Shown: positions 52,977 through 59,016 of the stretch, piece after piece | Layout: every line of letters begins with the position of its first letter | How positions within the stretch are numbered: the first letter of the stretch is position 1 | NCBI GenBank assembly: GCA_031177865.1 | Contig: JAPSKD010000004.1 | Span: 1-61,011 of the forward strand | Source of the DNA: Bacillus sp. (in: firmicutes) | Lineage (GTDB): Bacteria > Bacillota > Bacilli > Bacillales > Cytobacillaceae | Length of the DNA stretch: 61,011 bases | Direction of reading: 5' to 3' | Position numbers and translations under genes: made by a program | The notes under the pieces: model-generated | Databases searched by the model: none | Told to the model about the DNA's origin: nothing | The model's input: the letters and a program-made list of their open reading frames with translations, nothing else

Positions 52977-53024
52977 ATGAGATTTTATTTTAATGGTTGG
53001 AGAGGTTTTTATTCAAATGCCTAA
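52977..53024 (+). CDS. 15-residue leader peptide candidate
   Basis: A short ORF (MRFYFNGWRGFYSNA) with GGGAGG 11 bases upstream, ending with TAA 53022-53024, so its end overlaps the ATG of the yitT-like gene at 53017. Ribosomes terminating here could restart on the downstream start, whose own ribosome site is weak. It is aromatic-rich (five of 15). It could be chance. Confidence 0.4.
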   Translation: MRFYFNGWRGFYSNA

Positions 53025-53637
53025 AATTATTATTACCTATATATGTATTGTAATCGGCGCATTTCTACAGGGGCTAGGTATGTCCTTATTTTTATTTCCT
53101 CATAATATTCCATCCGGTGGTGCTGCGGGGCTTGCAATACTAATGAATCACTGGGTTGATTTGCCTCTAGGCATATCCCTTTGGATTGTCAATTTCTCCT
53201 TTTTAATTCTTGCTTTAAAATACTTTGGGTTTTCATGGACGGTAAAAACGATGATTGCCGTGACGATTACTTCGGTGACAGTGAGTTACGTATCTACTCT
53301 TGGATTATTCTTAACCCCTTTCTTCTGGCTTGACCTTTTAAGTGGGGCAGTAATTTTTGGTATTGGTGTCGGTCTTTTAATCCGAAGTGGTTCATCTAGT
53401 GGCGGAATGGTGATTCCGACATTAATGATTGCACAATACAATGATTGGTCTCCTGGTAAAGTCATGCTTTGGTTAAATTTTTTCATTTTTTTATTAACAG
53501 CAACAGTAATCGATATCCGAATCGTTTTTTATGCGATTATATGCCAAACAGTATCAACAAATATCATTGACCTAATCTATCATCTTAGAGCACCTTCGTT
53601 TATCAATACACCCTCACTGGGTTGGCGAAAAAAATAA
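53017..53637 (+). CDS. YitT/YczE-like integral membrane protein
   Basis: About 206 residues with five or six membrane helices of the DUF161/YitT-type repeat (GAFLQGLGMSLFLFPHNIPS, then GGAAGLAILMNHW, and RSGSSSGGMVIPTLMIAQYN in the second half). Function unknown. ATG 53017 (GGAGAGG ten bases upstream) is chosen, with ATG 52993 in frame as the alternative; the upstream leader ORF may couple its translation. It converges on the cysC operon through a bidirectional hairpin. Confidence 0.8.
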   Translation: MPKIIITYICIVIGAFLQGLGMSLFLFPHNIPSGGAAGLAILMNHWVDLPLGISLWIVNFSFLILALKYFGFSWTVKTMIAVTITSVTVSYVSTLGLFLTPFFWLDLLSGAVIFGIGVGLLIRSGSSSGGMVIPTLMIAQYNDWSPGKVMLWLNFFIFLLTATVIDIRIVFYAIICQTVSTNIIDLIYHLRAPSFINTPSLGWRKK

Positions 53638-53667
53638 AGTAAGAAAGCCAAATGTACTTTCTTACTT
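53637..53667. terminator. bidirectional hairpin (yitT-like / cysC)
   Basis: AAGTAAGAAAG pairs with CTTTCTTACTT around CCAAATGTA. The stop codon of cysC lies within it. Confidence 0.75.
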
Positions 53668-54267
53668 CAAAAGAATTTCCCTGTCTTTTAAATAGTTAAT
53701 AATCGTACCAACTGATTGTGAAATGGTTAATTTATCTGTCTCTATAATCAACTCTGGATGATTGGGTTCTTCGTATGGAGAGCTTATTCCGGTAAATTCG
53801 GATATCTCTCCACTCCTTGCTTTTTTATATAAGCCCTTTGGGTCACGATTTTCACAAATAGTAATTGGACATTTCACGTAAACTTCGATAAATTCCCCGT
53901 CTGGAAACAAGGCTCTCACCTGATCGCGATCCTCCCGAAACGGTGAAATGAATGCTGTAGAAACGATTTGCCCACTATCAACAAATAGCTTTGATACCTC
54001 ACCTATCCTACGAATATTTTCTTTCCTGTCCTCTTTGCTAAAGCCAAGTCCGGCATTTAATCCATGACGAATATTGTCACCATCAAGGACGTAGCTTTGT
54101 ACTTTAAGTGAGAAAAGCTCTTTGTCAAGGGCATTTGCTAATGATGATTTACCGGAACCTGATAGTCCAGTAAACCAAATCACACAGCTTTTATGTTGAT
54201 TTTGTTGTTGTCGCTCATTCTTCGTGATCGTTGATTGATGCCATATAATATATTGTTCTTCGCCCAT
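53662..54267 (-). CDS. cysC: adenylylsulfate kinase
   Basis: 201 residues. The P-loop GLSGSGKSS lies near 34-42, with [26 protein letters not shown] and the [23 protein letters not shown] signature of APS kinase. It phosphorylates adenylylsulfate to PAPS. ATG 54267 has AAGGTGGGG upstream, 10 bp after the sat stop. It is the last gene of the comA-cysC operon, corresponding to B. subtilis yisZ. Confidence 0.95.
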
Positions 54268-54277
54268 ATTCCCCACC

Positions 54278-55426
54278 TTATATCTTCGTGTATTGTTCTG
54301 CCATTCCTCGAATGAGGACCTCGACTACTTCTGGTCTACTAAATTCCTTTGGTGGTTTTTTACCCGCTTTTAGCATTTCACGTACCTTAGTGCCCGATAA
54401 AATGACATGGTCTTCTTTACTATGAGGACATGTTTTTGCGGACGCCATATTCCCACATTTTCTACAGAAGAAACTATGCTCAAAAAACAATGGCAAAATG
54501 CCTAACTCATCTTCTGTAAAATGACTAAAAATAGTTTGTGAATCATACGTTCCGTAGTATTTCCCCACTCCTGCATGATCCCGACCGACTATAAAGTGAG
54601 TGCAGCCATAATTTTTTCGAACTAAAGCATGGAAAATCGCTTCTCTTGGACCTGCATAACGCATTGCAGCCGGAAATACCGATAAGAACACTCTGTTTTT
54701 TGGATAATATTTTTCTAGGAGAACCATATAACTTTCCATTCTGATATCACTTGGAATATCGTCCGATTTCGTTTCCCCAACTAAGGGATTTAAAAATAAG
54801 CCATCTACAACTTCTAATGCGGATTTTTGTATATATTCATGTGCCCGGTGTACTGGATTACGTGTTTGAAATCCGACTACTTTCTTCCAACCAAGATGCT
54901 CAAACACCGCTCTTGTTTCGATTGGGTCCAAGTAAAAGGTTTCAAACCTATCCTTTTTTGGACGCTTTATCATATGAATCGGACCGGCAACATAAACACT
55001 TGGCCTTTCATACAAACGTTTAACACCTGGATGCGCATCCTCCGTCGTTCGATACACCTTAAAAGCTTCAACTTCTTTGTTGGCCACATATTTTTCGGTC
55101 ACCTCTATAACCCCATAAACCTCATCATTTTGTACTAATCGAACCTTTTCTCCGATTGAGATCTTTTTTGCCGTTGCCTTATCTACCGCCAATGTGATAG
55201 GAATTGACCATGGCAAACCATTTGCAAGTCTCATTGAGTGTAGAATCGATTCATAGTCTTCTTTACCTACAAATCCCTCAAGCGGACTGTATGCCCCCAC
55301 CGCTATTAATTCCAAATCACTTAACTCCATGTTGCTCAGTTCAATTTGTTTATCGATTTCTTCAACGTTTAAAGTTGGATTGTAACGATTTACTAGCGAA
55401 CCGCCATGCGGCGTACTTAATGACAC
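54278..55426 (-). CDS. sat: sulfate adenylyltransferase (ATP sulfurylase)
   Basis: 382 residues. GTG 55426 is the start (GGAGG eight bases upstream), giving [15 protein letters not shown], the usual Bacillus Sat N-terminus; the frame is open to 55474. Active-site motifs [11 protein letters not shown] and VGRDHAGVG are complete, and a CRKC...CPH pair set is the zinc region of this group. It makes adenylylsulfate from sulfate and ATP. It corresponds to B. subtilis yitA; 26 bp separate it from cysH. Confidence 0.95.
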
Positions 55427-55452
55427 TTTAAAAACCTCCATTACCAATTTCG

Positions 55453-56160
55453 TTATTTCACATGTAAACCGCATTCTGTCTTATCAGAATTGGCCCATCT
55501 GCCTGAACGCAAATCTCCATTTAATACTTGATTTGTACAAGGTGCACAACCAATACTTGGATAATTTTTGTCATGCAATTTATTGTAGGGTAGATTGTTC
55601 AACTTGATATAGGTCCAAACATCGTCCCAAGTCCAATGAATAAGCGGACAGATTTTTATGTTCTTAAATTTTTCATCCTTGTTTAGGTATTCCGTATTCT
55701 GGCGGGTTGGTCCCTGCTCCCTCCGAAGTCCCGAAATCCAAGCTTTGGTAGATGTTAAAACTTCATGTAGAGGTTCAATTTTTCGAATTTGACAGCATAA
55801 GTTAGGATTCGTTTTCCATAGCTCATCCCCGTGCTCTTTTGCCTGCTCCTCAAGGTTTAAGGCCGGTTTTTTTAGTTCAATATTGAGAGCTGGATACTTT
55901 TTTTTAATCTTATCAATGAGTTCATAGGTTTCTTTGAAATGAAGTCCTGTATCCAGAAAGACAATTCTTGCTTCCTTGTTGACCTTAGAAATCAAGTCAA
56001 TGAGGACCATACCCTCAGCTCCAAAGCTACATGCGTAAACAATGTCTTCTGCCGAATACGTTCGATACGCCCATTTTAAAATATCGTAATAATCTTTGTT
56101 GCTGTTTATAACGTCCTTTACACTTTCCTCATTCCAATTTTCATATGTGATGCAGCCCAA
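55453..56160 (-). CDS. cysH: phosphoadenylyl/adenylyl-sulfate reductase
   Basis: 235 residues. TTG 56160 is the start, with AGGAGG nine bases upstream inside the previous gene. The PAPS-reductase core ([27 protein letters not shown]) carries the Cys pair CCQIRK and CAPC that bind a [4Fe-4S] cluster, and the C-terminal ECGLH with the catalytic Cys. It yields sulfite. The cluster motif suggests APS may be accepted directly. It corresponds to B. subtilis yitB, in an operon with sat. Confidence 0.93.
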
Positions 56161-56701
56161 TCTTGTGTTCCTCCTCTCGGACCTTGATCGTTAGCAGCTG
56201 ATTGTTTTTTATCTCTAGCTGATTCATGTTATTGATGGTTCCGGATTTTAGATAGGATACACATGCTCGAATCCAGGAACCATGACCAAATACTAAAATC
56301 GACTCAAAATCCTTGTATTTTTGTAAAAATGTGTGCACCCTTTTCTCCAGGTTTGAAATCTTTTCCCCAAGCATAATTTCACCTGGACATGTAAACCACT
56401 CATTTTTATACGTTTCGATGAGAAGCTTCTTTTCTTTGCCTTCGAATTCTCCAAAATTAAGCTCATTTAATAGTGGCTCTACTTCAAAACTCTCATACCC
56501 ATAGCCCTGTGCTGTTTGTTGGGTGCGAGTCAATTCACTTGTTAAAATTAATGAGTATGTTGGTTTTAACAATTCTTTATTGATTTCAATTGCCTCTTTA
56601 TTCTCATCCGTTAGCTCTAAAATGGGAATATCCTTACTCCCTTGGAGAACTCCTTTTTCGTTCCATTCAGTTGGAAGATGCCTGATTAAGGTAAGTTCCA
56701 T
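56141..56701 (-). CDS. histidine phosphatase family protein in the sulfolactate operon
   Basis: 186 residues of the histidine-phosphatase (phosphoglycerate mutase-like) superfamily. LIRHLPTEWN holds the catalytic His8 (RH then LP instead of the usual RHG), with SELTRTQQTA, ELNFGEFEG and the second His in VFGHGSWIRA. It overlaps comA by 16 bases and cysH by 20, i.e. it is translationally locked into the operon. GGGGGAG lies before ATG 56701. In B. subtilis the same slot holds yitC (ComB, 2-phosphosulfolactate phosphatase), which is not in this operon, so this protein may do that step. Inference only. Confidence 0.85.
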   Translation of the reverse strand: MELTLIRHLPTEWNEKGVLQGSKDIPILELTDENKEAIEINKELLKPTYSLILTSELTRTQQTAQGYGYESFEVEPLLNELNFGEFEGKEKKLLIETYKNEWFTCPGEIMLGEKISNLEKRVHTFLQKYKDFESILVFGHGSWIRACVSYLKSGTINNMNQLEIKNNQLLTIKVREEEHKIGLHHI

Positions 56702-57453
56702 GTCTTCTCCCCCAGGAAAAATGTTTCGCTCCGTAGTCCGAGTCTTTGTGATTCTAAAACGAGTACATCTTGTAATTTCACATTTCCGAGGTTGACATTC
56801 GCTCCAAACTGGTTAATAAAAAACATTTGTTGCTTAGGAGTTGGTGCTTCAAATATCACCTTATTCACGTCAATATTTTGGGAAATTTGATTAATTAAAT
56901 CCATGTTGACGCTGCCTGAACGATTGTAAATACCTGCTGTCCCTGAGTCTCTCCCCTCAGTGATGACATATTTACAACCTGTTGCCAACAGTAAATTAAT
57001 CTCATGTTCCCACTCCGATAAAGGCATTTCTTTATCTTGATCTTTTGAACCAACTTCTGCAATTACATTAAAATGTTGTTTTAGTTTTTTGATTAATGAA
57101 ATTCTCTTATGAAGTGGGATGTCAATTGTTCCATTTGAGATCTCAATCCATTCAATCCCTAGCGTTTGTAGGCTTTTTGCATATTCTTCAATTTTCTCTT
57201 GTGCAAAGCATTTCTCAAATAGGGTTCCGCCACAATAAGGGATGACATTGTATTTTTTATAGAGGTTGATTTTTTCTTGTAGGTTCGGGGTCACATAAGC
57301 GGATCCAATCCCAATTTTCGCGATATCGATATAGGAATGATAATCCTGTAAATAAGCCTCTAAATGACCTAATGGCGTACCAAAATCAGCGATTGAGGTA
57401 AGTCCATAGCTTCGTTCTCCCTGTGTTCGTAAAGGAACATCTAAAAAATCCAT
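56686..57453 (-). CDS. comA: phosphosulfolactate synthase (ComA, YitD-like)
   Basis: 255 residues of the (2R)-phospho-3-sulfolactate synthase family (FGTPLGHLEAYLQDYHSYID, then KIGIGSAYVT and the GGTLFE and ITEGRDSGTAG parts of the barrel). It adds sulfite to phosphoenolpyruvate. In B. subtilis the enzyme leads to 3-sulfolactate stored in spores; in archaea it starts coenzyme M synthesis. AAGGAGGAG lies before ATG 57453. It is the first gene of the operon, divergent from a YitG-like transporter. I could not identify a clear sporulation sigma promoter upstream. Confidence 0.93.
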   Translation of the reverse strand: MDFLDVPLRTQGERSYGLTSIADFGTPLGHLEAYLQDYHSYIDIAKIGIGSAYVTPNLQEKINLYKKYNVIPYCGGTLFEKCFAQEKIEEYAKSLQTLGIEWIEISNGTIDIPLHKRISLIKKLKQHFNVIAEVGSKDQDKEMPLSEWEHEINLLLATGCKYVITEGRDSGTAGIYNRSGSVNMDLINQISQNIDVNKVIFEAPTPKQQMFFINQFGANVNLGNVKLQDVLVLESQRLGLRSETFFLGEKTWNLP

Positions 57454-57768
57454 AGGAATAACTCCTCCTTAGTCCAGCGTAAGGATAAAAATCCTCACTA
57501 CATTTGCCCAATTCTTCTTAGGCTTCTGTTCTTTTTTTATTACATATACCCATCTTCTTACAGTTGATATGTTATTCAAAAATAGGTAAAGGGTGTATAG
57601 ATTGGGCTTTTCTGGGCACTGTTCATTTGGAAACTACTTACAGAATAGGTTTCGTGAGATATTGAAAAAATAGTAAGGCAATAATTGATTTTAACGACAA
57701 TGACAAGAGAGGAACGGATGAAGTTCATCCAGCCTTTTACATACCGTAAAAGAAGGAGATGCAAAAAC

Positions 57769-59016
57769 TTGTCAAATCAAAAAAATTCAGCAATGACAAT
57801 TGTTGCGATTAGTTCTATTCCACTAATCCTGGTACTTGGTAATTCGATGCTCATCCCTGTTTTACCACAAATGCAAAAAGAGCTAGATATCAGCCAATTT
57901 CAGGTGAGTCTTGTAATCACAACATTCTCAGTTGCAGCGGCGATTTCAATCCCATTACTCGGCTATTTCTCAGATCGTTTTTCTAGAAAAGCGGTCATTA
58001 TACCAGCATTAATTCTTTACGGTACAGGTGGATTGCTTGCTGGTGCTGCAGCCGCTTGGTTTTCTAGCCCTTATTTTTGGATTATGGCTGGTAGGCTTAT
58101 GCAGGGTATCGGTGCGGCAGGAACAGCACCTATCGCAATGGCGCTTACTGGAGATCTATTTAAAGGAGGAAAACAAAGCCGAGTTTTAGGACTCGTGGAG
58201 GCATCAAATGGCTTTGGGAAGGTTATTTCACCAATTATTGGTTCCCTTCTAGCGTTACTATTTTGGTATGCTGCCTTTTTTGCTTTCCCAATTTTTTGCT
58301 TAATTTCCGTACTTCTCACGATATTCTTTGTTAAAGAGAAAAAACAAAAGAAAGAACCACCCCCACTTAAACAGTATGTGCGCGGATTGTTTTCAGTGTT
58401 TAAACATGAAGGCAGATGGTTATTCACAGCATATTTAGCTGGAGCAACCTGCTTATTCACCCTTTTTGGGATTCTCTTTTACTTATCTGATGTATTGGAA
58501 AAAACGTATGATACAGATGGAGTACTTAAAGGAGCTATATTAGCAATTCCATTATTATGTATGACAACAACATCGTATATTACAGGTAGTAAAATCGGCA
58601 AAAAGATGCCTTTGATGAAAAAGCTCATCATCATTGGACTTCTACTCATGACTGTATCGTTTGCATTATTAGTCTTTTTTGAGAGCTTGATTCCGTTTAT
58701 TGCCGTTTTGGCAATCAGCAGTATTGGAACTGGGCTTGTATTACCTTGTATTAACAGCTTTATTACGGGCTCTGTTTCATCCGAAAAGCGAGGATTTGTT
58801 ACTTCTCTTTATGGATCTGTTCGCTTTCTGGGAGTGGCCATTGGTCCACCTATATACGGTTGGTTAATGAATTGGTCAAGAGCCGGCATGTTTTTAACAA
58901 CTGCATCATTAACACTTGTAGTTGGGCTTTTATGTATGCTCCTGATTCATGTTAAAAAGAAAAAGCCTAATAAAGAAACAAATGATTCCCTGTTCAAAAA
59001 ACTTCAATTTACCTAA
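57769..59016 (+). CDS. MFS transporter (YitG-like)
   Basis: About 415 residues and 12 helices. [20 protein letters not shown] starts helix 1, [18 protein letters not shown] is the loop 2-3 motif A, and the helix-5 region [19 protein letters not shown] follows. It resembles YitG of B. subtilis, which likewise neighbours yitD. The most likely start is TTG 57769 (AAGGAGATG seven bases upstream); ATG 57718 (AGAGAGG) is possible and adds 17 residues. The substrate is unknown; sulfolactate export is an untested idea from its position. It is divergent from comA. Confidence 0.85.

Follow-up and report, generated by a model that had tools for sequence, protein, structure and literature searches.

The stretch of DNA analyzed here (the window) comprises 61,011 nucleotides, positions 1 to 61,011 of contig JAPSKD010000004.1 in the Bacillus sp. 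assembly GCA_031177865.1, and our interest concerns a five-gene operon on its minus strand (53662-57453) in which a gene for a histidine phosphatase (HP) is placed among genes associated with the synthesis of sulfolactate. All five encoded proteins scored far over the Pfam cut-offs of the expected families:

56686..57453, minus strand: comA, (2R)-phospho-3-sulfolactate synthase (Pfam ComA, 5e-79; PDB 1u83, phosphosulfolactate synthase, 2.8e-53)
56141..56701, minus strand: HP, histidine phosphatase of branch 1, RHLPT family, a proposed 2-phospho-3-sulfolactate phosphatase (Pfam His_Phos_1, PF00300, 2.5e-27)
55453..56160, minus strand: cysH, (phospho)adenylylsulfate reductase with a TTG start (Pfam PAPS_reduct, 1.4e-60; TIGR00434 over its cut-off)
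54278..55474, minus strand: sat, sulfate adenylyltransferase (Pfam ATP-sulfurylase, 3.4e-98, and PUA_2)
53662..54276, minus strand: cysC, adenylylsulfate kinase (Pfam APS_kinase, 2.8e-70)

This is the gene set that an earlier reading of the window, hereafter the original prediction, had claimed, and the two overlaps that it reported for the HP gene are borne out: 16 bp with comA (comA end 56686, HP start 56701) and, provided that the TTG is the true start of cysH, 20 bp with cysH (HP end 56141, cysH start 56160). The sequence GAGGAGG is found 5' of this TTG. ComA and the sulfite-forming genes occur together, as expected of a spore sulfolactate operon; the ComA of the window scored 225.9 bits against the archaeal equivalog TIGR03849, under the cut-off of 280 bits. 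ComB (PF04029), the 2-phosphosulfolactate phosphatase of an unrelated family whose reaction is proposed for HP, is absent from the slot in the operon, also as predicted.

The operon was further described as a mirror of the yit genes in Bacillus subtilis, which holds for the gene set, since ComA, CysH, Sat and CysC are the same enzymes, but not for an order within a single operon. A study of B. subtilis describes yitCD and yitBA-yisZ as two late operons with an inferred role in phosphosulfolactate synthesis, and puts sulfolactate at 5% of the spore dry weight (PMC517825). Moreover, comB is located upstream of comA in B. subtilis, whereas the HP gene is located downstream of comA here. The two gene sets are likewise separate in L089 and L095, two loci with ComB, where they are transcribed divergently and comB precedes comA, and where genes for a YitT-family protein and an MFS transporter adjoin as in the window. 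The ComA proteins in ten loci of this ComB type were 34-41% identical to the ComA of the window.

To describe how widely the arrangement occurs, we used an order-wide sample of 397 genomes, 70 of which contained a ComA match, over the family cut-off in 68. The neighborhoods of comA in all 68 genomes (with the assembly of the window, G000, represented by a second copy on contig C456) and at 12 loci from a genus sample were typed with profiles built in this study. In this comparison, which the original prediction had proposed as a check, the same HP gene directly followed comA in 37 of the 68 genomes, comB was located beside comA in 25, six had neither and none had both. The comB gene was directly upstream of comA in 23 of the 25 loci and convergent in two, and all 12 genus-sample loci had the comA-HP arrangement. 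The six loci with neither gene were three Lederbergia-type operons, one genome with ComA alone (G430) and two distant ComA-like genes (L103 and L113). The comA and HP genes overlapped by 16 or 19 bp in 32 of 49 loci, with the HP starts set by rule.

A second set of named loci consisted of the best 80 of 330 ComA relatives in an alignment headed by the ComA of the window; it is biased to the type of the window because this protein served as the reference, and it shares strains with the order-wide set, so that the two are not independent. Among these 80 loci, 75 were comA-HP, four were comA-cysH-sat-cysC, of which three appear to be on the same contigs as in the order-wide sample, and one had ComA alone. 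The genera represented include Neobacillus, Mesobacillus, Robertmurraya, Fredinandcohnia and Siminovitchia. The comA-HP arrangement is the trait of a whole lineage and not of a single strain.

The phylogeny of ComA (81 proteins, window included) placed the 50 proteins from loci with HP and the three from Lederbergia-type loci without HP in one clade (SH-aLRT 99), with the 25 ComAs of the ComB type outside it, a topology that requires HP to have been gained once and lost once. The gene was kept in 37 of the 40 order-sample genomes of this clade. The tree is a quick maximum likelihood tree, the PF04029 tree below is likewise a quick tree, and both come with long-branch warnings and with SH-aLRT values as the sole measure of support. 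Two genes outside the operon are conserved along with it:

57685..59016, plus strand: MFS transporter gene, divergent from comA (Pfam MFS_1; synteny)
52993..53637, plus strand: gene for a YitT-family membrane protein, convergent with the operon (Pfam YitT_membrane; synteny)

The MFS gene is divergent from comA in 47 of 49 HP loci and the convergent downstream YitT-family gene is present in 43 of 49. Relatives of both were found near comB-comA in several of the 25 ComB-type loci, such as L085, L089, L095 and L102, by BLAST at 1e-10; both families are large, and the orthology of the neighbors is unproven. The recurrence of these neighbors suggests a single ancestral site where HP may have entered and ComB may have left, in an order of events that can only be inferred.

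PF04029 genes were matched in 185 of the 397 genomes. Among the 37 genomes with HP, 23 gave no PF04029 match at all, including G214 and G240 with a completeness of just 87% and 80%; the same holds for seven of the 12 genus-sample genomes. The other 14 HP genomes carry an unlinked PF04029 gene, a frequency similar to that in the genomes without ComA (144 of 329; Fisher p 0.60). In a tree of 103 PF04029 proteins, with weak support for the deepest forks, the 23 ComBs encoded directly upstream of comA formed one clade on a long branch (SH-aLRT 99), with the two convergent ComBs falling elsewhere and all 78 unlinked proteins outside it. The unlinked set covers 13 of the 14 PF04029-bearing HP genomes (G131 is unsampled, and one of the two G239 copies is included), and no sampled copy from an HP genome was inside the clade; the copy in G160 is interrupted by a stop and entered the tree as a fragment. 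Since unlinked PF04029 genes (among them loci L001, L027-L056, L165-L193 and L288-L307) are about as common in genomes without ComA as in HP genomes, and the sampled ones are set apart from the clade of ComBs encoded directly upstream of comA, it is doubtful whether they should be called 2-phosphosulfolactate phosphatases. The two loci in which comA is convergent with a ComB-family gene, L114 (G284) and L125 (G261), are from one genus, and both proteins are on branches of their own.

These results bear on the idea that an unlinked ComB encoded elsewhere in the genome performs the step and that HP has another job. Such genes are present in the 14 HP genomes mentioned and in the assembly of the window, but the majority of the HP genomes have none, and the sampled copies are outside the clade of ComBs encoded directly upstream of comA and belong to a kind of gene that is as common without ComA, and we regard this explanation, already disfavored, as highly improbable. 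The assembly itself requires comment. With 486 contigs, a completeness of 91% and a contamination of 6%, it contains a comA-HP operon twice, on the window contig (C251) and on contig C456 (L106), and both copies have the same neighbors. The ComA on C456 groups in the ComA tree with those of G016 and G017, members of the nominal genus of the assembly. The operon region of the window, in contrast, matches two genomes of the genus g80 (L119 and L123) at 95-97% DNA identity across about 9-9.7 kb, and its ComA shares 98% identity with that of Fredinandcohnia onubensis. The assembly therefore appears to combine two organisms, one Fredinandcohnia-like, to which the window contig would belong, and one Neobacillus-like.

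The original prediction had named a ComB gene elsewhere in the genome, under the same control, as an observation that would refute it, and one PF04029 match was indeed found in the assembly, with a weak score (9e-24) on contig C466. The protein clusters with the unlinked PF04029 proteins and not with the ComBs linked to ComA, and its own clade has nine sampled members (C466 included), eight of them from the nominal genus. This subset was drawn chiefly from that genus, and other genomes of the order with equally weak scores, such as G150 and G178, are not in the tree. A PF04029 search of g80, the genus of the window, gave no match in nine genomes, with B. subtilis detected as a positive control, and ComA and HP were found in the same eight of these nine genomes, with both missing from G428. 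We have therefore rejected the assembly's own PF04029 copy as the enzyme for this step. Taken together, the mutual exclusion of HP and ComB at the locus, the single gain of HP, the tie between HP and ComA and the many genomes without PF04029 make the non-orthologous replacement of ComB by HP, as originally put forward, well supported at the genome level.

The HP protein scored 96.2 bits against PF00300 (cut-off 21.7), which makes it a member of branch 1 of the histidine phosphatase superfamily, and PF00300 was the only Pfam family matched at E-values up to 0.001, with no match to the ComB family PF04029. In this superfamily a histidine serves as the nucleophile, two arginines and a second histidine hold the phosphate and a glutamate acts as the acid. 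The residues R7, H8, R59, E80 and H140 of HP are the same in all 50 aligned rows and in all 75 named homologs, and this catalytic core aligns with those of the PDB relatives 2eoa and 9mmh. The RHLP motif in place of RHG, which had been singled out in the original prediction, proved to be the signature RHLPT of the family, present in all 49 HPs of the order-wide and genus loci (47 by pattern match and two by eye) and in 73 of the 75 named HPs, with RHLST in the other two. The residues W13, W102, W143, N160, N166 and N167 are also invariant in the family.

All 15 NCBIfam models listed for HP, phosphoglycerate mutase models included, scored under their own cut-offs, so that HP is not a recognized member of a characterized subfamily in that collection. 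The best model was that of CobC, the alpha-ribazole phosphatase (TIGR03162), at 88.1 bits against a cut-off of 162.9. HP resembles CobC (PDB 2eoa and variants) in belonging to branch 1 and in the alignment of the catalytic RH, R, E and H, but differs in having RHL-P/S-T instead of RHG and in the lack of cobalamin genes in the operon. The best PDB profile match, at 1.4e-18 and over nearly the whole length of HP, was 9mmh, annotated as "Phosphoglycerate mutase," which has an RHA motif.

A profile of the HP family identified members in 38 of the 397 genomes at 1e-30 or below, with no match between 1e-30 and 2e-68, and in the genus g64, where the search was extended down to 1e-8, a similar void separated the matches of up to 65.5 bits from those over 275 bits; this gap indicates that the family is discrete. 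A phylum-wide search of 378 genomes at a threshold of 1e-25 gave the assembly of the window as the sole match. The HP gene is beside comA in 37 of the 38 genomes with the family (Fisher p 4e-32, phylogeny uncorrected). The correlation of pairwise distances across 46 loci was 0.87 for ComA and HP and 0.84 for ComA and CysH, which reflects co-inheritance without singling out HP.

We favor the hypothesis, to which we assign a probability of roughly 70%, that HP is the 2-phospho-3-sulfolactate phosphatase that displaced ComB once, in an operon that makes 3-sulfolactate in sporulation. In the proposed pathway, Sat, CysC and CysH would convert sulfate to sulfite, which ComA would join with phosphoenolpyruvate to form 2-phospho-3-sulfolactate. 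HP would then strip off the phosphate via a phosphohistidine intermediate to yield 3-sulfolactate, with H8 as the nucleophile, R7, R59 and H140 holding the phosphate and E80 acting as the acid. Elsewhere the same step falls to ComB, a Mg-dependent enzyme of another fold. HP would have been gained once, next to comA and at the root of one ComA lineage, from which ComB is missing. The sequences show the gene content, the conserved overlaps, the mutual exclusion, the gain and loss of HP on the tree and the conserved catalytic residues. We infer the substrate, the product and the expression in the mother cell, and the sequence evidence as a whole supports the view that the HP operon represents the known spore sulfolactate pathway with a phosphatase from a different enzyme family.

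Several observations weigh against this hypothesis. Three Lederbergia-type genomes of the genus g64 keep comA-cysH-sat-cysC with no HP or PF04029 found (L104 in G224, L111 in G416 and L117 in G377), so that HP is either dispensable there or another phosphatase serves. The association of ComA and HP is phylogenetically clustered, and the p value given above thus overstates the independence of the data. Finally, G044 carries an orphan gene of the HP family (L206:6001-6555) in a genome with no ComA match. The persistence of the Lederbergia-type operons could mean that HP is an accessory protein and that a housekeeping phosphatase removes the phosphate. We consider this improbable, as HP has been retained almost throughout its ComA clade with its overlap and its catalytic residues conserved. 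The Lederbergia-type genomes do hold other HP paralogs (at most 65.5 bits), and a similar one (60.5 bits) is present in G357, which carries HP. A TauE/SafE gene was considered as a feature special to the Lederbergia-type loci and was rejected, since it is a neighbor in 22 of 80 loci, HP-carrying ones included.

In most HP loci the HP gene separates comA from cysH, and in the window it overlaps cysH, which could alternatively point to CysH as the partner, with HP clearing the by-product 3'-phosphoadenosine 5'-phosphate instead of converting the product of ComA. However, HP stays with comA at loci without cysH, both in the order-wide set (3 of 37) and among the named loci (13 of 75, of which 12 are without cysH, sat and cysC and one, L270, without cysH alone), with cysH searched for at the locus and not elsewhere in the genome. 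Conversely, cysH is present without HP at the ComB-type loci L085, L087, L089 and L095 and at the Lederbergia-type loci. A general role of HP in the service of cysH is rejected on these grounds, and a more restricted one seems unlikely to us. We give similarly little credit to the suggestion that the operon leads to a new sulfonate, with HP acting as a mutase or on a phosphorylated sulfonate that is different or arises later. The superfamily contains mutases and varied phosphatases, and the RHL-P/S-T motif and the additional invariant tryptophans and asparagines mark a specialized family, but no gene for a further enzymatic step is present in the operon and a single phosphatase completes the route to sulfolactate.

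The proposed role in sporulation leads to the question of transcriptional control. A candidate promoter is located 5' of comA in the window:

57568..57594, minus strand: sigma-K-like promoter, AC-N16-AATANNNTA (pattern match)

A first scan of 53 HP-type or Lederbergia-type loci with textbook-like patterns gave seven sigma-E-like matches (shuffle mean 2.7), three sigma-K-like matches (4.6) and no sigma-G-like match (2.4), and six of the seven sigma-E-like matches overlap the sigma-K-like site defined later. The latter pattern, AC-N15..17-[AC]ATANNNTA, occurs 5' of comA in 51 of the 53 loci, compared to a mean of 2.8 and a maximum of 6 in 40 shuffles. A sigma-K-like site in this position would agree with the published control of yitCD late in sporulation, which in B. 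subtilis is reported to be exerted chiefly by sigma-K (PMC517825). The assignment is nevertheless burdened in several ways: the pattern was defined post hoc from the same, related sequences, it differs from CATANNNTA at the first base with the strict form in just 2 of 53 loci, and among the ComB-type loci it is found in just 8 of 25 (shuffle mean 1.55), with L089 and L095 lacking it. As the published control in B. subtilis concerns a ComB-type system, and yet so few loci of this type match, the pattern is weak evidence for sigma-K. We thus regard it as a conserved promoter-like block with a match to sigma-K that is suggestive only. In the window the site is at -141 from comA, compared to about -57 in many relatives, which corresponds to a longer leader (57454-57567). 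The pattern was not found at L142 and L145.

The locus L142 is of interest for another reason. In this genome, G105 (L142:106-7839), comA-HP is situated within a nonulosonic-acid cluster that encodes a Polysacc_synt_2 dehydratase, a cytidylyltransferase, an ATP-grasp protein, NeuB and a DegT aminotransferase. The pair is located directly before the gene for the ATP-grasp ligase, genes that look flagellar by eye adjoin, and there is no cysH beside it, which is a further point against a role of HP in the service of CysH. One tentative hypothesis, which we hold to be possible rather than probable, is that comA-HP is a portable sulfolactate-making pair, tied by its overlap, that displaced ComB once and has been reused outside sporulation, and that the ATP-grasp ligase in G105 might link sulfolactate through an amide to the sugar to give a sulfonated flagellar glycan.

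If our favored reading of HP as the phosphosulfolactate phosphatase is correct, it would supply the missing phosphatase of the sulfolactate pathway for many Bacillaceae and assign a function to this family of histidine phosphatases, to which the CobC and phosphoglycerate mutase models come closest. The comparison also serves as a warning that the unlinked PF04029 genes in the order carry a doubtful name. No paper that pairs "phosphosulfolactate" with "histidine phosphatase" was found in the open-licence PMC full text.

A few individual loci deserve mention. The distant ComA-like proteins at L103 (G326) and L113 (G407) have no adjacent HP or ComB and possibly another function, and the one at L103 is 26% identical to the ComA of the window. 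Two comA contigs were recovered for Bacillus sp. V3B (L246 and L268), one of them without HP, which may represent a second copy or a mixed assembly. Finally, the locus L240, labeled Bacillus subtilis DE0224, carries an HP-type operon, and its species label looks wrong.

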